In this document: piece by piece, positions 128 through 29,852 of the stretch
Layout of the letters: every line of letters begins with the position of its first letter
How positions within the stretch are numbered: position 1 is the first letter of the stretch
IMG/VR virus record: IMGVR_UViG_3300036857_000207
Span: 1 to 33,145 of that record
Direction: 5' to 3' (one strand)
DNA length: 33,145 nt
Source: a virus
Made by a program: the position numbers and the translations under genes
The notes under the pieces: model-generated
The model's database searches: none
What the model saw: only the letters and a program-made list of their open reading frames with translations
What the model was told of the DNA's origin: nothing

Positions 128-661
128 GCGCGACTAAGGCAGAGCGGGCAGTTCAATACGGTCAGCGACTTCAACGCCGCGACTCTCAACGGCTGGTACA
201 CCGTCCTGCCAGGCGCCGCGAATCGCCCGCCCCGCAACAGCGGCTACGACTACTGGATCGTCAGCGTCGCGGCGTGGGACGGCGCGCAGATCCACCAGTA
301 CGCCGCCGAGCTGTGGGGCGAGCTGATCTTCCGCCGCCGCTGCCAGAACGGCACTTGGCAAAACTGGGTGCAGCTCTCGCCCGACGTCGCCGTCGACCAG
401 ACCTACCGCCGCGCGATCGGCGGCATCGTCAACTCAACGCTCGACGGCGCCGGCACGATCCGCGTCAACTTCGCGCGGCCCGTCGCGAACCTCGCCGCCG
501 TCACGGTCACAAACTTAGGCACCGGCCAGCTCAACCGCATCTACTCCGCGGTCGGCTACGACGTCAACGGCTTCACGATCGCCGGATGGGAGCTCAACAA
601 CACGCCCTCCGCTAACGGGCAGGTGCAGGTGGCGTGGATCGCGCTCGTTGACACCGCCTAA
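2..661 (+). CDS. Receptor-binding tail fibre, C-terminal part (5' end outside the window)
   Basis: The frame is open from base 2, so the gene enters from the left; 219 residues are visible. The segment around RRRWAGGTGGTWTAWIQL is the end of one knob-like module, a full second module follows (LPARL, SDFNAATLNGWYTVLP, then FRRRCQNGTWQNWVQL), and the last 85 residues form a beta-rich tip ending in VQVAWIALVDTA. The G-W-Y ... R ... W-x-x-W layout resembles pyocin-knob modules of tail fibres. The protein is homologous to the fibre that runs off the right end: bases 1-127 equal 32621-32747 exactly, and 128-525 align to 32748-33145 without a gap. It may be the same gene (circular genome, variant allele) or a tandem paralogue. 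The tip resembles that of the 994-1527 product. Role: probably host recognition at the tail tip. Confidence 0.8.
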   Translation: MVYEVTGLRSWRRRWAGGTGGTWTAWIQLTDSDGFIVDGVLPARLRQSGQFNTVSDFNAATLNGWYTVLPGAANRPPRNSGYDYWIVSVAAWDGAQIHQYAAELWGELIFRRRCQNGTWQNWVQLSPDVAVDQTYRRAIGGIVNSTLDGAGTIRVNFARPVANLAAVTVTNLGTGQLNRIYSAVGYDVNGFTIAGWELNNTPSANGQVQVAWIALVDTA

Positions 662-3513: not shown

Positions 3514-3545
3514 CGGCCCGGGCTGTCACCCGGGCCGTTGCTTTT
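3514..3545 (+). terminator. Intrinsic terminator after the late/lysis operon
   Basis: A perfect 9-bp stem CGGCCCGGG / CCCGGGCCG (3514-3522 with 3529-3537) and a 6-nt loop precede TTGCTTTT. It ends the rightward late operon and overlaps the last codons of the convergent minus-strand gene. Confidence 0.8.
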
Positions 3546-3798
3546 CGCCGCCGCCGCGGCGCTTGCGGGCCCTGTCGATCCAGTCGCTGACCCAGCCGGG
3601 GCTAACCTCGAGCGCCTCGGCGATCGCGCTCTGCGGGCAGCCCGACTCGTTCAGCTCGAGCGCGAAGTCCTGCAGTTCCTGCAGCGAGTCGTCGGCCTCG
3701 TCCCTCGCACGGCTGCGGATGGAGTAGAGCTTCCGAAGGTACCTCTGCTCGAGTTCGCTCAATGCCCGCCCGCGCGGCCGGCCGCCCTTCCTCTCCAT
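3526..3798 (-). CDS. Small helix-turn-helix DNA-binding protein, candidate repressor or switch regulator
   Basis: It encodes 90 residues from ATG at 3798 (reading leftwards), with no strong ribosome site upstream. An Arg/Gly-rich start (MERKGGRPRGRALSELEQRYLRKLY) and a charged helix precede a helix-turn-helix (about 52-80, CPQSAIAEALEVSPGWVSDWIDRARKRR). The geometry is that of the sigma-4 or Trp-repressor-like HTH in small phage regulators. It is the only minus-strand gene next to the control region and diverges from the early operon at 4296, the usual place of an immunity repressor or late activator. No separate repressor gene is otherwise recognisable. Which role applies is open. Confidence 0.78.
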   Translation of the reverse strand: MERKGGRPRGRALSELEQRYLRKLYSIRSRARDEADDSLQELQDFALELNESGCPQSAIAEALEVSPGWVSDWIDRARKRRGGGEKQRPG

Positions 3799-4052
3799 CG
3801 CGGCGCACCGTATGCGCTACGCCGTAAAGGGTTTCACCCGGTCCAACGGGGGATTGCCTGACGAAACGCCCGCAAACTGCGCGCTCTCTCGACTTGACGC
3901 ATCTAGACCAGGGCGCGACAGCGGACTAGTCTCGTTGGCTTGCGAGCCCTCCTTCCAGTCGTGACAACCGAGCAGGCGTGGGACTGGTGGTGATCGAGGG
4001 TGGCGAACGACGGATCGGGGCAGGCTGGCATCGCGAACGTGGCTCGAGAGCG

Positions 4053-4095
4053 GAGCGGCCCGGCAGCAACCCTGGAAGGAGGCGCCGGGCCGCTC
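4053..4095. other. Long GC-rich hairpin in the control region
   Basis: A perfect 12-bp stem GAGCGGCCCGGC / GCCGGGCCGCTC (4053-4064 with 4084-4095) closes a 19-nt loop that contains GGAAGGAGG, a Shine-Dalgarno-like stretch without a start codon at the right distance. There is no T tract, so it is not a normal terminator. It could be part of a leader or small RNA, or a protein-bound cruciform. Function unknown. Confidence 0.6.
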
Positions 4096-4105
4096 TGCGG
4101 CGATC

Positions 4106-4134
4106 TTGACAGCCGAACGCGGCGCCGCTCGTGT
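4106..4134 (+). promoter_or_regulatory. Possible sigma-70-type promoter
   Basis: A perfect -35 box TTGACA (4106-4111) is followed after 17 bp by TCGTGT (4129-4134), a poor -10. If used, the transcript would start near 4141 and run through the 10-bp repeat array. It is listed because of the exact -35 match; the -10 is weak. Confidence 0.3.
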
Positions 4135-4181: not shown

Positions 4182-4251
4182 CGTCACGAAGCGTCACCCG
4201 CCATCACCCGCCATCACCCGCCGTCACCAGCCGTCACACGCCGTCATCGCG
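4182..4251. repeat. Seven-unit, 10-bp-phased CGTCAC array upstream of the early promoter
   Basis: Sites start at 4182, 4192, 4202, 4212, 4222, 4232 and 4242. They read CGTCAC, CGTCAC, CATCAC, CATCAC, CGTCAC, CGTCAC, CGTCAT, each followed by 4 less conserved bases (often CCGC). The period is exactly 10 bp, about one helical turn, so a protein could bind side by side along one DNA face. The last unit ends 9 bp before the -35 box at 4256. The same sites with the same period occur in attP at 7308-7343 and 7392-7427. Confidence 0.85.
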
Positions 4252-4255
4252 GCAC

Positions 4256-4284
4256 CTGACACGTCGACGAGTGTGCGCTAGAAC
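4256..4284 (+). promoter_or_regulatory. Early promoter, probably with a nearly leaderless transcript
   Basis: The -35 box CTGACA (4256-4261), a 17-bp spacer and the -10 box TAGAAC (4279-4284) would start RNA near 4291, about 5 nt before the ATG at 4296. There is no ribosome site before that ATG, which fits a leaderless or near-leaderless mRNA, common in actinobacteria. The CGTCAC array lies directly upstream, so activation or repression by its binding protein is likely. Confidence 0.55.
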
Positions 4285-4295
4285 CGGCGTCCCCG

Positions 4296-4709
4296 ATGCA
4301 GCCGACCGACGCGCACCTGTTCCTGCCGATCGAGCTCGAGCCGCTGCAGCGCTTCCGATCGGTCGACGCGTTCTACGCCGACGACGAGCGCCGCCGGCGC
4401 AGCCCCGAGTGGGACTACGGCGTCGCCTGGCGTTCGAGCGCCGACGAGCTGTGGCCGCGCTGGCGCGTCTCGTGGGTCGTCGCGACCGGCGATGTCTACG
4501 CCGTGAAGATCGCGCGCGACCCGCTCGTGCTGCTGCTCGGCGTCGTGCCGCCGCTCGGCGAGTACCCCTACGGCGAGGGCTCGGCCGCGTGGCACGACTT
4601 CGCGCGCGTGCAGCCGGTCGAGCGGGTGCTCGCCGGCTGGGCCGAGCTCGACGAGCAGGTGCTCGGCTGGGTCGTCGAGAGGATCGCCGCCGAAGGGTTC
4701 GACACGTGA
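4296..4709 (+). CDS. First early protein, function unknown
   Basis: It encodes 137 residues from ATG at 4296. It is rich in aromatic residues: FLPIELEPLQRFRSVDAFYADDERR, SPEWDYGVAWRS, PRWRVSWVVATGDVYAVKI, then a hydrophobic strand (PLVLLLGVVPP) and a charged C-terminal helix. It looks like a compact alpha/beta protein without membrane segments or Cys. Similar small proteins are common early genes in actinophages and lack a known function. The next gene overlaps by 4 nt. Confidence 0.82.
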   Translation: MQPTDAHLFLPIELEPLQRFRSVDAFYADDERRRRSPEWDYGVAWRSSADELWPRWRVSWVVATGDVYAVKIARDPLVLLLGVVPPLGEYPYGEGSAAWHDFARVQPVERVLAGWAELDEQVLGWVVERIAAEGFDT

Positions 4710-4954
4710 GCGACGACCTCGTCGCGATGCGGCTATCCGTACAGCCGACGGCGCGGGACGGCCGCTACGTCCCGCCGATCAACCTGCGCGAGCAGCACGT
4801 GAGCCGATCGCACGCGAACATCGCCGCGCGCCTCTTCGAGGAGAGGGCGCGCGACGGGCGCCGGCTCGATCCCGAAGCGCGCCGCCCGCGGCCGCACGTT
4901 CATCCGTCCGCTGTCTCGTTCGGCTGGCCGTGGGGCCCGAGGCCGTTCGCGTGA
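4706..4954 (+). CDS. Small early protein, unknown
   Basis: It encodes 82 residues, from GTG at 4706 that overlaps the previous stop (GTGA). The frame is open far upstream, but that part is antiphase to the previous gene and ignored. The protein is basic and polar (YVPPINLREQHVSRSHANIAARLFEERARDGRRL) with a Trp/Pro C-terminus (SFGWPWGPRPFA). No domain recognised; it could bind nucleic acid, judging by charge only. Confidence 0.65.
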   Translation: MSDDLVAMRLSVQPTARDGRYVPPINLREQHVSRSHANIAARLFEERARDGRRLDPEARRPRPHVHPSAVSFGWPWGPRPFA

Positions 4955-5190
4955 GCACTGACCCGCGCTACGGCGAGCGCGTCGACGCGAACGCTGTCGC
5001 GACGATGGGCGTCGTGCTGAAGGCGCTCGTGCTGCGCGCCGGCGGCCGGATCGAGCTCACGAACGCCGAGCTCGAGGCGGCCGCGCGCGTGACCGTGCAG
5101 ACCGACGCCGACCCCGAGCTGCTCGTGATGCAGCTCGTCGACGGCGCGCCGCCCGACACGCCGCGCTTCGCCGCCGAGGCGAGCGCGTGA
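4951..5190 (+). CDS. Small early protein, unknown
   Basis: It encodes 79 residues, from GTG at 4951 with GTGA overlap (GTG 4930 is possible but would overlap more). It begins VSTDPRYGERVDANAVATMGVVLKALVLRAGGRIELTNAELE, a helix-strand-helix layout, and ends in an acidic tail. No catalytic motif is seen. Its stop overlaps the start of the excisionase-like gene, so they should be made together. Confidence 0.7.
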   Translation: MSTDPRYGERVDANAVATMGVVLKALVLRAGGRIELTNAELEAAARVTVQTDADPELLVMQLVDGAPPDTPRFAAEASA

Positions 5191-5378
5191 CCGTGACGGC
5201 CGCCGACGTCGTCTGGTTGACGAAGCTCGAGGCGGCCGCGCGTGCGCAGCTCTCCCCGTCGACGCTCGAGCGCGCGATGCGCGCCGGCGAGCTGCGCTAC
5301 AGCGGCGGCGGCGGCTACGCCGTCCGCATCCGCTCCGACTGGCTCGACGAGTGGCTCGAGCGCCGCGGCCGGCGCTAG
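5187..5378 (+). CDS. xis: Excisionase-like MerR/AlpA-type winged helix-turn-helix protein
   Basis: It encodes 63 residues, GTG start with GTGA overlap. LTKLEAAARAQLSPSTLERAMRAGEL (about 11-36) is the helix-turn-helix, followed by a wing (RYSGGGGYAVRIR) and a last helix (SDWLDEWLERRGRR), the layout of HTH_17/AlpA-type excisionases that bend DNA at attachment sites. It lies directly upstream of the integrase gene. Such proteins steer tyrosine integrases towards excision and can also regulate promoters. The phased CGTCAC sites at attP and upstream of the early promoter are candidate targets. The fold call is good; the excisionase role comes from context. Confidence 0.8.
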   Translation: MTVTAADVVWLTKLEAAARAQLSPSTLERAMRAGELRYSGGGGYAVRIRSDWLDEWLERRGRR

Positions 5379-5406
5379 CATGGCCGCTCCCTCTCATCCC
5401 CTAGCC

Positions 5407-5412
5407 AGGAGG
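5407..5412 (+). promoter_or_regulatory. Ribosome binding site that decides the integrase start
   Basis: AGGAGG lies 6 nt before GTG at 5419 in the integrase frame. An ATG at 5380 is in frame but lacks such a site, so 5419 is preferred. Confidence 0.75.
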
Positions 5413-5418
5413 CCTCGC

Positions 5419-6735
5419 GTGTCCTTCACCACGCTCGAGCCCGAGCCCGGCGTCCGCCGTCATCCGAGCGGCGCGTCGTGGCAGGTCCGCATCTCACCCT
5501 TTCCGCCCGTCGCAGGCTTCGACGACCTCGACGACGCCAACGATTACGCCCGCGAGCTCCGGCGGCGCAAGCGGCACGGCATCCTCGTGCCGCCCGCGCG
5601 GCGCACGCTCAGCTACCGGCTGCTCCGCGAAGGCGCCGCCGACTACCTCGAGACGCTCGCGATGGTCGGCGGCGCGCACGGCCGCCCCTACAGCCGCCAG
5701 GCGCTCGACGCCGCCCGCAAGTCGCTACGCGTCTGGCTCGGCGAGCCAATCACGCCGCGCAAGCGAAACGGCCGGCTCGTCGTCGGACCTCCCGCCGTCG
5801 ACGACCACGGCCGCCCGTTCGCCGAGCTGCCGCTCGCCGCGCTCGCCGTGCGGCCCCTCGAGGCCTACCTCGCCAAGCGATACGCGATCACGCCGCGCGC
5901 CGCCGTCGGCGAGCAGCAGGCGCTCGCGGCGATCCTCAGGCAGGAGCGCCGCCGCGGCGAACAGTTCGACCCGATGCTGCTCGAGCTGGCACCGCTACGC
6001 CGCCGCGCCGTCGAGCGCGCCGGGCTTGCGTGGGCCGAGCTCGGCTTCCTCGCCGCGCACGCGCAGGAATCGCAGCGGCGCGTCTTCACGCTCGGCGGGT
6101 CGCTCGGCGGCCGGATCATGGAGCTCCTGCAGGCCGAGGACGCCTGGCTCGACGTCGACGCGGCCGTGCTGTCGATCCCGTCGTGGGTCCTGAAGCAGCG
6201 GCGCGACCTCGAGCTCGACTTGCTGCCCGAAGAGGTGCGCGCCTTCCGCGAGCAGCAGCTCGTGCGCTCGCCGCGCACGGCGCACGGCACGATGGGCACC
6301 CCGCTGCTCTTCCCGCGCGTCGAGGGCGGGCCGTGGAACCGTCACGGCAGCTTCTACAACCGAGTCGTGGCGCCGGCGCGCCGGAAGGCCGCGAAGGCCT
6401 GGCGCGCCGAGCACGAGCTCGCGCCCGGCGCCGACACGCCGTTCGAGTGGCTCAAGCGTGACGCGCACGGCGTCGTCGAGCTCGACGCCACCGGCACGCC
6501 GATCGTCGTCGGCTTCGCGCCGCACGACCTGCGCCGCGGCGCCGCCGACCTGCTGCTCGAGCTCGACGTGCCCGCCGAGCTCGCCGCCGTGCGGCTCGGC
6601 CACAAGGACGCCGGCGCGCTGCTGCTGCGCAAGTACGCCAACCGCGACAAGCGGGCCCGGCTGCGCGCCGAGCTCGACTCGATCGCCGCCGACGGCGGCA
6701 TCGACGGCCGGCTCGCGAAGAGGGCGCGCGCATGA
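5419..6735 (+). CDS. int: Tyrosine-recombinase integrase
   Basis: It encodes 438 residues from the GTG with the AGGAGG site. The catalytic set is in order: Arg 232 (GGRIMELLQAEDAWLD), Lys 259 (VLKQRRD), HDLRR with His 369 and Arg 372, GHKD with His 395, and the nucleophile Tyr 406 (LLRKYANRDK). The N-terminal about 70 residues (SGASWQVRISPFPPVAGFDDLDDANDYARELRRRK) look like an arm-type DNA-binding domain; a core-binding domain follows. It should join attP at 7272-7300 to a host tRNA gene. attP lies about 540 bp downstream rather than adjacent, with two ORFs between. It is coupled to the next gene by ATGA. The phage is therefore temperate or derived from one. Confidence 0.95.
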   Translation: MSFTTLEPEPGVRRHPSGASWQVRISPFPPVAGFDDLDDANDYARELRRRKRHGILVPPARRTLSYRLLREGAADYLETLAMVGGAHGRPYSRQALDAARKSLRVWLGEPITPRKRNGRLVVGPPAVDDHGRPFAELPLAALAVRPLEAYLAKRYAITPRAAVGEQQALAAILRQERRRGEQFDPMLLELAPLRRRAVERAGLAWAELGFLAAHAQESQRRVFTLGGSLGGRIMELLQAEDAWLDVDAAVLSIPSWVLKQRRDLELDLLPEEVRAFREQQLVRSPRTAHGTMGTPLLFPRVEGGPWNRHGSFYNRVVAPARRKAAKAWRAEHELAPGADTPFEWLKRDAHGVVELDATGTPIVVGFAPHDLRRGAADLLLELDVPAELAAVRLGHKDAGALLLRKYANRDKRARLRAELDSIAADGGIDGRLAKRARA

Positions 6736-7097
6736 GCGCCACGCTCAACGAGCCGAAGCTGCTCGCCGCGCTCGACTTCGTGCGGCGCACGGGCGCGACG
6801 TCGATTTCGATTCGCTACCACGACGACGAGCAGCCGGTCGTCTGGCTCGTCGTCGCAAGCTACGTCGTCGACGGCGACGAGCGGCACGAGGTCGACGCGA
6901 GCCTCGACCCGGTGCGGGCGGCGCTGCGGCTGTGCGAGCGGCTCGCCGACGGCGGGCAGTGCACGCATTGCGGCCGGCCGTCGGGGCTCGACCCTGACTC
7001 GCTCGAGACGATGCCGCTCGATCGGCTCGTCTGCTGGTACCAGTACGACCCCGAGCTGCGGAAGTTTCGGCGCGGCTGTGAGGGGGATGCGGCGTGA
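6732..7097 (+). CDS. Conserved actinophage protein with a CxxC motif, unknown
   Basis: It encodes 121 residues, ATGA overlap with int. Helix and strand at the start (LLAALDFVRRTGATSISIRYHDDEQPVVWLVVASY) are followed by a helix, then GGQCTHCGRPSGLDPDSLETM and the ending LVCWYQYDPELRKFRRGCEG. The C-x2-C plus later Cys may bind a metal. This C-terminus is the kind that recurs in small actinophage early proteins of unknown role. It lies between int and attP. Confidence 0.8.
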   Translation: MSATLNEPKLLAALDFVRRTGATSISIRYHDDEQPVVWLVVASYVVDGDERHEVDASLDPVRAALRLCERLADGGQCTHCGRPSGLDPDSLETMPLDRLVCWYQYDPELRKFRRGCEGDAA

Positions 7098-7492
7098 GCC
7101 TCGAGCGCATCGGCGGCGCCGCCGTCGCGCTACTGGCCGAGCTCGGAAGAAAGCACGAGCCGCCGGTCCTTCACTCCCGGCGGCTCGAGCTCGTCGGCGC
7201 ATCTGGTCCAGATTTGGTCCGAAGCGCCGTCGCCTTCGACGATACCCCGTCGTTTGCAGGGCTTTCGTCAGTGCGGATGAGAGGACTTGAACCCCTCACC
7301 TCGAGCTCGTCACCGCCCGGCATAGCTCGTCACCTTCCGTCGTCGAAGCCCGAAAAGCCCCGCAAGAGCGGGGCTTTTCACGTGAAGGCCTCGTCACAGC
7401 TCGTCACCGCCCGTCATGGTACGTCACTTCGGGCGGGCGTCGTTTTGGTCCAGATTTGGTCCAGATTTGGTCCGAGGCGGCCGACCGCGTGA
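7094..7492 (+). CDS. ORF that runs through attP, unknown and split by integration
   Basis: It encodes 132 residues, GTG start with GTGA overlap to the previous gene, and its own stop overlaps the GTG of the next gene. This double coupling supports real translation. About 35 residues of ordinary sequence (LERIGGAAVALLAELGRKHE) are followed by translated attP: the 11-bp repeats, the antisense tRNA end (MRGLEPLTSS), the terminator hairpin (PEKPRKSGAF) and the right arm (QIWSRFGPRRP). Integration at 7272-7300 would replace the C-terminal half by host codons. It may be a leader-like ORF that keeps ribosomes on the RNA through the hairpin. No domain recognised. Confidence 0.5.
   Translation: MSLERIGGAAVALLAELGRKHEPPVLHSRRLELVGASGPDLVRSAVAFDDTPSFAGLSSVRMRGLEPLTSSSSPPGIARHLPSSKPEKPRKSGAFHVKASSQLVTARHGTSLRAGVVLVQIWSRFGPRRPTA
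7202..7222. repeat. attP left arm: two 11-bp TTTGGTCCAGA-type repeats
   Basis: The units are TCTGGTCCAGA (7202-7212) and TTTGGTCCGA (7213-7222). The 19 bases 7204-7222 recur exactly at 7457-7475 on the other side of the tRNA core. They are candidate integrase arm-type sites (P arm). Confidence 0.65.
7272..7300 (-). other. attP: attP core: 3' end of a tRNA gene
   Basis: On the minus strand it reads: T stem AGGGG, loop TTCAAGT, stem CCTCT, acceptor strand CATCCGC, discriminator A. Plus-strand positions are acceptor 7273-7279, T arm 7280-7296, discriminator 7272. No matching 5' acceptor (GCGGATG on the minus strand), D arm or anticodon arm lies nearby, so this is only the tRNA tail that integrases of this class use as crossover region. 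A GCGGAUG acceptor with A at the discriminator is often seen in tRNA-Leu, so that is the best guess for the target. Integration would rebuild the tRNA on the int side. Confidence 0.82.
7308..7343. repeat. 10-bp-phased CGTCAC array in attP, four units
   Basis: Sites at 7308 (CGTCAC), 7318 (CGGCAT), 7328 (CGTCAC) and 7338 (CGTCGT) have an exact 10-bp period. Two units are perfect and two are degenerate. It lies between the tRNA core and the terminator hairpin. Confidence 0.7.
7352..7379. terminator. Bidirectional intrinsic terminator inside attP
   Basis: A perfect 12-bp stem GAAAAGCCCCGC / GCGGGGCTTTTC has a 4-nt loop AAGA. The AAAA and TTTT tracts at the stem ends make it a terminator in both directions. 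It lies within the ORF 7094-7492 and between two CGTCAC arrays. It would block transcripts entering the replication genes from the integrase side, or from host DNA in the prophage. Confidence 0.8.
7392..7427. repeat. 10-bp-phased CGTCAC array in attP, second group of four
   Basis: Sites at 7392 (CGTCAC), 7402 (CGTCAC), 7412 (CGTCAT) and 7422 (CGTCAC) have an exact 10-bp period. It matches the 7-unit array at 4182-4251. It lies between the terminator hairpin and the right-arm repeats. Confidence 0.82.
7444..7475. repeat. attP right arm: three tandem 11-bp TTTGGTCCAGA repeats
   Basis: The units are 7444-7454, 7455-7465 and 7466-7475 (the last ends CGA). With the two units on the left arm, this mirrors the two P and three P' arm sites of lambda attP. 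They are likely contacted by the integrase N-terminal domain. Confidence 0.7.
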
Positions 7493-26823: not shown

Positions 26824-27165
26824 ATGGCGGTCGCCGCCGGTCTCCCGCCGCCGCTGATCGCGGAACTACCCGCCCGCGACTACGGGGCGCTCGAGGCTGC
26901 GCTCGACCGGCGCTGGGGCCCGACCGAGGAAGGGCTCGCGACGCTCTGCGACCTCGTCCACCTGCTGCTGCTCGTCGAGGTGCAACGCGGCGGCGGCAAG
27001 GGCTGGCGCTGGACGCCGATCCCGCGGCCGACCGCGAGCTCGAGCACGAGACGCCGCCGGCCGGCGAGCGCCGGCGGGCCGCGCAACGGCAAGCCGGGCG
27101 TCCAGACCGGGCAGGCCTTGCTCGCCGCGCTCGGCGGCGCCGGACCCGTGAGGAGTGAGCGCTGA
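26824..27165 (+). CDS. Second tail assembly chaperone (T-like), possibly made by -1 frameshift
   Basis: From ATG 26824 it encodes 113 residues: AGLPPPLIAELPARDYGALEAALDRRWGPTEEGLATLCDLVHLLLLVEVQRGGGKGWRW, then a basic, Ser/Arg-rich end. The frame is open upstream through the G-like gene (-1 relative to it), so it may be translated only as a GT fusion. The CCCC run gives one candidate slip site, but no classic heptamer is obvious. Its stop overlaps the tape-measure ATG (TGATG). Confidence 0.65.
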   Translation: MAVAAGLPPPLIAELPARDYGALEAALDRRWGPTEEGLATLCDLVHLLLLVEVQRGGGKGWRWTPIPRPTASSSTRRRRPASAGGPRNGKPGVQTGQALLAALGGAGPVRSER

Positions 27166-29852
27166 TGGCGGGCACGATCGGCGACGCATTCGTCAACGTC
27201 CACCTCGACCCGAAGGGCGTCGAGCAACAGCTGTCCGGGCTCGGCGGTGGGCTCGAGGGCCGCTTCGGGAAGATGGGCGGCGTCGCTGGCGTCGCGATGA
27301 AGGCCGGGATCGTCGGCGCGGTCGCCGGCACCGCGATCGCGGTCGGCAAGGAGCTCTACGCCGTCGGCGAGCAGTTCGACTCGATGCGCGACGACATCCA
27401 GGTCGCGACCGGCGCGACCGGCAAGGACCTCGACGGGCTCGTCGGCTCGGCCAAGACGGTCGCCACACAGGTGCCGACCAGCTTCGAGAAGGCGGGCGAG
27501 GCGGTCGGGCAGCTGCGCTCGCGCACCGGGCTGAGCGGCAAGGCGCTCGAGGGCATGAGCAAGCAGGTGCTCGAGCTCAGCCGGCTGACCGGCGAGGACC
27601 TCGGCGGCACGATCGAGAAGAGCACCCGCCTGTTCGGCGATTGGGGTCTGCAGGGCGCCGAGGCCTCGAAGGGGCTCGACAAGGTCTTCCGTGCGAGCCA
27701 GGCGACCGGCGTCGGCGTCAGCCGGCTCGAGGAGCTGATGGTCAAGTTCGGCGGGCCGATGCGGCAGCTCGGCTTCAGCTTCGACGACACCGCGGCGCTG
27801 CTCGGGAAGTTCGAGAAGGAGGGCGTCAACACCGAGCTCGTGATGGGGTCGATGCGGATCGCGCTCGGCAAATTCGCCCGCGAGGGCCGCAAGGCGCAGG
27901 GCTACCAGGCGCAGCTCACCGCCGCCCAAGAAAAGCTGACCGAGGCGATGAAGAAGGGCGACGAGTCGGGCATCTCCAAGGCGGAGGAGGCGGTCAACAA
28001 GTACGCGATCAAGCTCGACTTCGCGAAGCGGGCGGCCCAGGGCGCGCCCAAGGCGATCAAGGCGACGTTCAAGGAGATCCGCGACGCCAAGGACCCGACC
28101 GAGGCGACCGCGATGGCGCTCGAGGCGTTCGGCGCCCGCGCCGGACCCGACATGGCGGCCGCGATCCGGGAGGGCCGCTTCTCGATCGACGACCTCGAGA
28201 AAACCATCTCGAAGGGCCGCTCGACGATCGTCGGCACCGGCAAGGACACCGCCGACTTCGCCGAGCAGTGGCAGATGCTGAAGAACAAGGTGCTGGTCGC
28301 GATCGCGCCGCTCGCCGAGAAGTTCTTCAACGTGGTCGGGCAGGGCATGGCCTACGCCGCCAAGGAGCTGCCGCCGCTGGTCGACGGGCTCAAGCGCGAC
28401 CTCGGCCCGACGCTCGAGGACATCGGCTCGATCGTCGACTCGCTGATGCCGGTCTTCAAGGTCGTGTTCTCCTACGCCCAGACGACGCTGAAGAACTTCG
28501 CCGACGCCGCCGAGGCGGCTATGCAGATCGTCGGCGGCGCGATCAAGATCGTCGCCTCGCTGCTGAAGGGCGACTGGAGCGGCGCCTGGGAGGGCGCCAA
28601 GCAGGTCGTCGAGGGCGTCGGCAAAGCGATCGAGGCCGAGCTCAACCAGCTCGCCAACGTGCTCGACCTCGTCACGACGCCGATCCGCAAGGCCGCCGCC
28701 GCGATCGGCAACGCGATCGTCGATGGGATCATGGCGCCGCTCGACAAGGTCGGCGACGCCGCTCGAGGAGCGATCAACAAGGCGCTCACCTTCGGCGACG
28801 AGATCGTGAGCGCGATCGAGTCGCGCGCCGCTGCGATCGGCCGCGCGATCGTCGGCGCCGTCGTCGACCCGATCGCCGAGGTCGGCGACAAGGTCCGCGG
28901 GCAGATCAACAAGGCGATCACGTTCGGCGACGAGCTGCTCGGCGCGATCGAGAACCGGGCCGCCGCGATCGGACGGGCGATCGTGAACGCGGTGGTCGAC
29001 TGGCTCGGCGACATCGGCGACAAGGTGCGCGGCGCGATCAACAAGGGCATCACCTTCGGGGAGGAGCTGCTCGGCGCGCTCGCCGGCAGGGCGGCCGCGA
29101 TCGGCACCCGGATGCTGCAGGCCGTGCTCGACGCGCTCGACGCGATCGGCGACAAGGTACGAGGCCTCGTCCTGGGCGCGATCACGTTCGGCGCCGACCT
29201 GCTCGCGACGATCGGAGGGCGCGCGCTCGCGATCGGCACCTCGATCGTCACGGCGATCATGAGCGGGCTCGCGAGCGTCGGCGACAGCGTGCGCGCCAAG
29301 CTGCGCGGCGCGATCCGGTTCGGCAAGGACCTGCTCGCCACGATCTACAACCGCGCGGTCGAAGCGGGCAACCGGATCGTCGACGGCCTGGTCGCCGGGC
29401 TCGGCGGGCTCGGCGGCGCGATCCTCGACGCGCTCAAGGACGCGCTCGAGTGGGCGCTGCGGCAGTTCAAGAAGATCCCGGGCGCCGGCTTCGTGATGGA
29501 GCACGTGCCCGGCCTGAAGATGAGCGACGGCGGCGGCTTCGACACGGGCGCCGGCGGCGGAGGCGGCGGCGACTTCGGCCCAGGCGCGCGCGCCGCCGAG
29601 GCCGGCGTGCTCGGCGCGCCCGCCCCGAGCGGCGCCGGCGTCGCCGGACCCGTGGCGCCGTTCCAGACGCTGCGGCGCGAGCTCGCCCGACGCGGCGCAC
29701 CCGAGCTCGACGCCGGCGCAGCACCGCCGGTGCTCGTCCGCGTCTACATCGGCGACACCGAGCTGCGCGGGATCGTCCGCACCGAAGTCGGCTACGCCGA
29801 CGACGAGACAGCGCGGATCGCGCTCGGCGGGCTCGTAGGGGTGCGCTCCTGA
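27165..29852 (+). CDS. Tape measure protein with 132-bp internal repeats
   Basis: It encodes 895 residues, ATG 27165 (TGATG) with GAGGAG. N-terminal half: GRFGKMGGVAGVAMKAGIVGAVAGTAIAVGKELYAVGEQFDSMRDDIQVATGA is the phage minor tail/TMP domain, and coiled-coil helices follow (KAQGYQAQLTAAQEKLTEAMKKGD). Residues about 511-774 are six tandem 44-residue units (AAAIGRAIV...DKVRG...ITFGDELLGAIE). The end is Gly-rich. It fixes tail length; at about 0.15 nm per residue, roughly 130 nm is expected. Confidence 0.93.
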   Translation: MAGTIGDAFVNVHLDPKGVEQQLSGLGGGLEGRFGKMGGVAGVAMKAGIVGAVAGTAIAVGKELYAVGEQFDSMRDDIQVATGATGKDLDGLVGSAKTVATQVPTSFEKAGEAVGQLRSRTGLSGKALEGMSKQVLELSRLTGEDLGGTIEKSTRLFGDWGLQGAEASKGLDKVFRASQATGVGVSRLEELMVKFGGPMRQLGFSFDDTAALLGKFEKEGVNTELVMGSMRIALGKFAREGRKAQGYQAQLTAAQEKLTEAMKKGDESGISKAEEAVNKYAIKLDFAKRAAQGAPKAIKATFKEIRDAKDPTEATAMALEAFGARAGPDMAAAIREGRFSIDDLEKTISKGRSTIVGTGKDTADFAEQWQMLKNKVLVAIAPLAEKFFNVVGQGMAYAAKELPPLVDGLKRDLGPTLEDIGSIVDSLMPVFKVVFSYAQTTLKNFADAAEAAMQIVGGAIKIVASLLKGDWSGAWEGAKQVVEGVGKAIEAELNQLANVLDLVTTPIRKAAAAIGNAIVDGIMAPLDKVGDAARGAINKALTFGDEIVSAIESRAAAIGRAIVGAVVDPIAEVGDKVRGQINKAITFGDELLGAIENRAAAIGRAIVNAVVDWLGDIGDKVRGAINKGITFGEELLGALAGRAAAIGTRMLQAVLDALDAIGDKVRGLVLGAITFGADLLATIGGRALAIGTSIVTAIMSGLASVGDSVRAKLRGAIRFGKDLLATIYNRAVEAGNRIVDGLVAGLGGLGGAILDALKDALEWALRQFKKIPGAGFVMEHVPGLKMSDGGGFDTGAGGGGGGDFGPGARAAEAGVLGAPAPSGAGVAGPVAPFQTLRRELARRGAPELDAGAAPPVLVRVYIGDTELRGIVRTEVGYADDETARIALGGLVGVRS
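28695..29486. repeat. Six tandem 132-bp (44-residue) repeats in the tape-measure gene
   Basis: Units start at 28695, 28827, 28959, 29091, 29223 and 29355, exactly 132 bp apart. The first three units are most alike (AAAIG ... AINKA/G-I-TFG-EL); the last two diverge. They give elongated helical repeats; change in unit number would change tail length. Confidence 0.85.

Follow-up and report, generated by a model that had tools for sequence, protein, structure and literature searches.

Apl of coliphage 186 is both an RDF and a transcription regulator; seven of its operators lie at pR-pL and another five at attP, all of them 6-bp sites spaced 10-11 bp apart (PMC7498355). Binding to att and to a promoter has been described for each of Apl, Cox and RdfS (Apl: PMC7498355; RdfS: PMC11963761). 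BldC and RDFs form head-to-tail filaments on direct repeats about one helical turn apart (PMC5859096, PMC7498355, PMC11963761). In BldC, a host developmental regulator of Streptomyces for which no recombination role is described, the residues described as making base contacts in the major groove are Arg30 and Lys26 alone (PMC5859096).

We analysed an IMG/VR virus record of 33,145 bases with 73% G+C, the whole of which is called the window here. The features on which the comparison draws are given below; L007 and L214 are two related phages.

3526-3798, minus strand: small HTH_23-like protein (Pfam HTH_23, E=1.5e-4, below the cut-off)
4182-4251, plus strand: early array, seven direct repeats with a 10-bp period and the core C(G/A)TCA(C/T)
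4256-4284, plus strand: predicted early promoter, CTGACA-17-TAGAAC, starting 4 bp downstream of the array; array and promoter follow each other likewise in L007
4296-4709, plus strand: first ORF of the predicted early operon, function not assigned
5187-5378, plus strand: Xis/RDF candidate, an HTH_17 winged HTH of 63 aa (PF12728, phrog_66, fold match)
5419-6735, plus strand: tyrosine integrase (phrog_1, E=2e-12; PF00589 below the cut-off)
7203-7220, plus strand: left (P) arm-type integrase repeats, CTGGTCC and TTTGGTCC
7272-7293, minus strand: attP core, TGCGGATGAGAGGACTTGAACC, an exact 22-nt match to the 3' end of tRNA-Leu(CAG)
7308-7347, plus strand: attP left array, four units, two of them exact CGTCAC and two degenerate
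7353-7378, unstranded: hairpin resembling a bidirectional terminator, AAAAGCCCCGC-GCGGGGCTTTT, conserved in both L007 and L214
7392-7431, plus strand: attP right array, four CGTCA(C/T) units, 84 bp (8 turns) from the left array
7444-7473, plus strand: right (P') arm-type integrase repeats, three copies of TTTGGTCC with an 11-bp period

As in phage 186, repeats of one type, one turn apart, lie at attP and at an early promoter, which in the window is a consensus prediction, and the candidate gene lies in the predicted early operon. The original prediction that no described phage has this layout was wrong, because the operators of Apl at the early promoters and attP of phage 186 are published (PMC7498355). 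The likeness to Apl is one of site layout and presumed role. The Apl sites lie between the convergent pR and pL, whereas the array of the window abuts the -35 box of a single predicted promoter, and the window's attP, unlike that of phage 186, has two arrays around a terminator hairpin. In P2-like phages, the lytic and lysogenic promoters face each other, with the repeats between them and overlapping them. Here the array ends 4 bp before one predicted promoter and a consensus scan found no opposing promoter at the array, so we describe the locus as Apl-like in its probable working and do not file it as P2-like.

Three further proteins resemble the Xis candidate in fold. Its best fold match is BldC (PMC5859096; PDB 6AMA/6AMK), and the equivalent of BldC Arg30 is conserved as Arg29; a head-to-tail filament on direct repeats would be a further likeness. 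BldC binds 9-bp AATT-type repeats, whereas the units of the window are 10 bp long with a CGNCA core. The second-best match is RdfS of ICEMlSymR7A (PMC11963761; PDB 8DGL), an HTH_17 winged-HTH RDF that binds attP and its own promoter, each subunit covering about 10 bp. An additional N-terminal helix sets RdfS apart, and its sites show no visible consensus, in contrast to the strong CGNCA core of the window. Xis of mycobacteriophage Pukovnik (PDB 4J2N) shares the actinophage HTH excisionase fold and one-turn tandem att sites. Its identity to the Xis candidate is only about 19% over the aligned fold. To our knowledge, no early-promoter array is known for Pukovnik Xis.

Repeat arrays at the predicted early promoter and in attP

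The early array reads, in order, CGTCACGAAG CGTCACCCGC CATCACCCGC CATCACCCGC CGTCACCAGC CGTCACACGC CGTCATCGCG (4182-4251). Its unit cores are CGTCAC, CATCAC or CGTCAT at an exact 10-bp period, with 3/42 mismatches to CGTCAC, and its self-consistency (39/42) exceeded the maximum of 35 reached in 200 third-order Markov shuffles. The seven predicted units were thus borne out. The attP right array (CGTCACAGCT CGTCACCGCC CGTCATGGTA CGTCACTTCG; 7392-7431) has 1/24 mismatches, in agreement with the four units predicted from 7392 onwards. The attP left array (CGTCACCGCC CGGCATAGCT CGTCACCTTC CGTCGTCGAA; 7308-7347) has 4/24 mismatches: units 1 and 3 are CGTCAC and the others CGGCAT and CGTCGT. Counting four units at 7308 was therefore generous from the sequence alone, since two are exact and two degenerate, and it is the CGNC at homologous positions of L007 and L214 that rescues the array. 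A lone four-unit array lies barely beyond chance (a score of 23/24 was reached in 2/200 shuffles), and it is position and conservation that make the case for the attP arrays.

Equally regular arrays elsewhere in the genome would have refuted the original prediction; no further CGTCAC array comparable to these three was found on either strand of the window. All three fall outside likely genes, and the early and attP cores are identical. In the attP arrays the linkers vary between units while CGTCA is kept, indicating that recent slippage does not explain the uniform core.

The tRNA-derived core, the arm-type repeats and the integrase at 5419-6735 together identify a tyrosine-integrase attP. Three actinobacterial genomes have a tRNA-Leu(CAG) gene, confirmed with ARAGORN, whose 3' end is identical to the core, and TTTGGTCC-type repeats flank the core on both sides, confirming the predicted placement of attP. 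The direct repeats, about one turn apart, lie between the core and the arm sites. The candidate xis gene (5187-5378) comes directly before int, an order common to L007 and L214. Since the two attP arrays are about 8 helical turns apart, they lie on the same DNA face. CACGTG follows the hairpin directly (7379-7384) and is conserved.

The predicted promoter beside the early array (CTGACA-17-TAGAAC) was the top consensus match between 3400 and 4400 in a simple scan, and a stricter scan found no promoter. L007 has TTGACC-17-TACAAC 6 bp after its early array, the best-scoring site of that region in the simple scan, and in both phages the genes after the promoter lead to xis and int. The claim of an early promoter at this place thus stands as a consensus prediction.

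Between the HTH gene and the early array, 3925-4110 holds long inverted repeats (CCTCCTTCCAG/CTGGAAGGAGG and GCGGCCCGGC/GCCGGGCCGC) with an RNA fold z of -2.3 on the plus strand; a search of this segment against Rfam gave no family.

Conservation of the arrays in related phages

The comparison covers three phages: the window, L007 (IMGVR_UViG_3300036857_000068; integrase about 51% identical to that of the window) and L214 (IMGVR_UViG_3300037153_000341; integrase 53% and Xis about 69% identical). A third relative is a 99% identical contig that ends within int. The window, L007 and L214 have the same attP order: arm repeats, tRNA 3' end, array, hairpin with CACGTG, array, arm repeats. The distance between the attP arrays is 84 bp in the window, 85 bp in L007 and 83 bp in L214, about 8 turns at 10.5 bp. 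Alignment showed that CG.C or CG.CA is kept at 10-bp steps in both attP arrays of the three phages, so the 10-bp spacing holds at attP in relatives, as the original prediction demanded, and on this alignment the repeat unit is CGNCA. The tRNA whose 3' end is used appears to differ among the three phages, indicating that the attP arrays are conserved independently of the target.

The third base of the unit differs between phages. In attP it is T in 7/8 units of the window and A or C in all 18 units of L007 and L214. In the early arrays it is T in each of the 13 units of the window and L007. L007 therefore keeps CGTCAC in its early array and has CGACAC in its attP array; over all its units, base 3 is T in 6/6 of the early array (core CGTCA) and in 0/9 of attP (core CG[A/C]CA; Fisher p=2e-4, a value valid only for independent units, which these are not). 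The right attP array of L007 has near-identical units, and slippage may have contributed to it. L214 has no early array in the intergenic region from its HTH homologue to its first early gene.

The order of hairpin and CACGTG recurs at 7353-7384 of the window, 3646-3677 of L007 and about 4677-4708 of L214, and the hairpins of the window and L007 differ at two loop bases only. A scan of other viral contigs with the hairpin pattern matched only L007. Both relatives carry an additional HTH_17 gene. That of L007 (L088, 3456-4025; G001, 36698-36808, minus strand) lies close to the early region of the circular genome, and that of L214 (2687-2965) lies directly before xis and has a different recognition helix.

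CGTCAC arrays with a 10-bp period also occur in at least 119 genome stretches and in 47 IMG/VR stretches, which were weighed as possible relatives; the screen for relatedness covered the 47 IMG/VR stretches. They were rejected, having no recognisable homologue of the window's Xis, HTH or first early protein within 6 kb; the sole exception was the 99% identical contig. Many of their arrays are situated in a likely replication-initiator frame. In L010, L012, L027, L034, L036, L038, L042, L046, L049, L051 and L055, CGTCACAAAN arrays with a 10-bp period, often of 4+4 units, sit in a reading frame with RTR(R/K)WRE...RH...RH, followed by an A/T- or purine-rich stretch. These look like lambda-O-type origin iterons in the replication-initiator gene of unrelated phages.

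Candidate binders of the arrays

The 5187-5378 product matched PF12728 (E=2.5e-8; 34.5 bits against a cut-off of 27 bits), and its top phage family was phrog_66, 'excisionase and transcriptional regulator' (1.2e-7). It is encoded by the only HTH_17 gene of the window. A structural model (mean pLDDT 82, built on a three-sequence alignment) was closest to BldC, RdfS and Pukovnik Xis, with a probability of 1.00 and no match passing E 0.001. An HMMER alignment, gap-free over the recognition helix, placed Arg29 on BldC Arg30 and residue 25 on BldC Lys26. Arg29 is invariant in the Xis proteins of the window, L007 and L214; at residue 25 the window has Ser, whereas the other two have Arg.

We consider it probable, with some reserve, that this protein is an excisionase/RDF that loads the attP arrays and the early array and autoregulates the xis-int operon. 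Its subunits would line up head to tail in a filament on the 10-bp direct repeats, one for each CGTCA unit, and fill the two attP arrays (7308-7347 and 7392-7431), 8 helical turns apart on one DNA face. These filaments would bend the right arm round the terminator hairpin and help integrase bound at the core and arm repeats to excise. A second filament at 4182-4251 would stop 4 bp ahead of the -35 box, and the promoter there would read from 4296 to xis and int, so that the operon would be autoregulated. The regulation is more likely to be negative, as for Apl and RdfS, with the filament extending into the promoter, because RDF filaments such as those of Apl spread into neighbouring DNA; activation is also possible, as the position upstream of the -35 box allows it.

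Several observations support a shared Xis: the HTH_17 and excisionase-family matches, the fold class and the single HTH_17 gene of the window; the attP plan and the 10-bp CGNCA repeats conserved in two relatives; the same core at both sites of the window; and the precedents of Apl, Cox and RdfS. Furthermore, base 3 of the attP units changes as a block, and residue 25 changes with it. The original choice of the Xis-like product as first candidate is thus upheld as the best explanation, by its HTH_17 domain, its fold class and the fitting type of site. Against a shared Xis, L214 has the closest Xis and no early array, and L007 has early and attP cores that differ at base 3, so the L007 Xis may not read both. 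As the specificity of RDFs is loose, core identity is weak proof of a shared binder.

A less likely alternative is that Xis acts at the attP arrays and that a different HTH_17/BldC-type filament former, a phage paralogue or a host factor, occupies the early array; the shared core of the window would then reflect convergence at one base of CGNCA. The diverging cores of L007 fit this, as does its second HTH_17 protein, which has Ser at the BldC Lys26 position in place of the Arg of the L007 Xis; in L007, then, Xis is not necessarily what binds the early array. The recognition helix of this second protein resembles that of the window Xis (SESTVERAIR versus SPSTLERAMR), and the early core is the same in the window and L007. 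However, L214 has a second HTH_17 gene yet no early array, and the window lacks a counterpart of the L007 gene or any other second HTH_17 gene, so two binders would require a host protein or an unrecognised gene. The helix argument moreover draws on four proteins. From these four, we hypothesize a link between the array type and the residue at the BldC Lys26 position: CGTCA arrays would occur with Ser, and CG[A/C]CA arrays with Arg.

The shared Xis of the window and the two HTH_17 proteins of L007 could also be two states of a dual-purpose excisionase that is splitting, an idea that we put forward as a speculative one with a low probability. One HTH_17 protein would read CGTCA at both sites in the window, two would divide the work in L007, and the residue aligned with BldC Lys26 (Ser or Arg) would set base 3 (T or A/C).

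Binding of the early array, or of all arrays, by the 3526-3798 HTH protein, as an immunity or early regulator, is very improbable. Its gene is divergent from and adjoins the early array, and a homologue adjoins the early array in L007. This co-occurrence, which at first supported it, was undone by L214, which keeps the homologue (177-404, minus strand) without an early array. Its model has a long helix (15-51) followed by the HTH, with no resemblance to BldC or Xis among the top matches, and the base-3 change tracks Xis residues instead. The protein, originally the second candidate, is accordingly not of the filament-type wHTH class in the model and is unlikely to bind the arrays. Least probable of all is that the arrays are non-regulatory, either slipped-strand tandem repeats or replication iterons that resemble binding sites by chance: CGTCAC 10-bp arrays do occur in many IMG/VR contigs, where several are perfect tandem repeats and others lie within a likely replication-initiator gene, but the arrays here lie outside likely genes, keep CGTCA while the linkers vary in attP, occupy homologous attP places in three phages and lie directly upstream of a like promoter in two.

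With a shared Xis, dual excisionase control of the Apl/Cox type would reach into an actinophage-like group. Distinct here are an array that is promoter-adjacent rather than promoter-spanning, two in-phase attP arrays on either side of a terminator, and, in L007, early and attP arrays that have diverged from each other. The block-wise change of a single base in the attP units accompanies a change of one recognition-helix residue, so these phages lend themselves to a simple natural test of DNA reading by HTH_17 filament formers, and could show whether the roles in recombination and transcription are separable.

Genome context

The terminase of the window is related to actinobacteriophage terminases, which fits an actinobacterial-type phage. 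No integrase relatives were found in GTDB genomes or among deposited phages, and a search of 397 genomes from the phylum to which an Actinomycetes MAG belongs gave one weak match only. Neither the integrase nor Xis has a close counterpart among deposited phages, and no integrated relative of the phage was found in the genomes searched.

Ahead of attP, 6732-7097 encodes a conserved protein of unassigned function with 19 relatives in IMG/VR contigs, mostly without an adjoining attP. Except in L007, no such attP was found beside these relatives.

The 99% identical contig (L089) joins the two ends of the window, and the L007 contig carries a terminal repeat whose copies are near-identical; the genomes of the window and L007 thus both appear to be circular or circularly permuted. 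A tape-measure-like ORF (27165-29852) contains about three 132-bp tandem repeats at 28694-29214.
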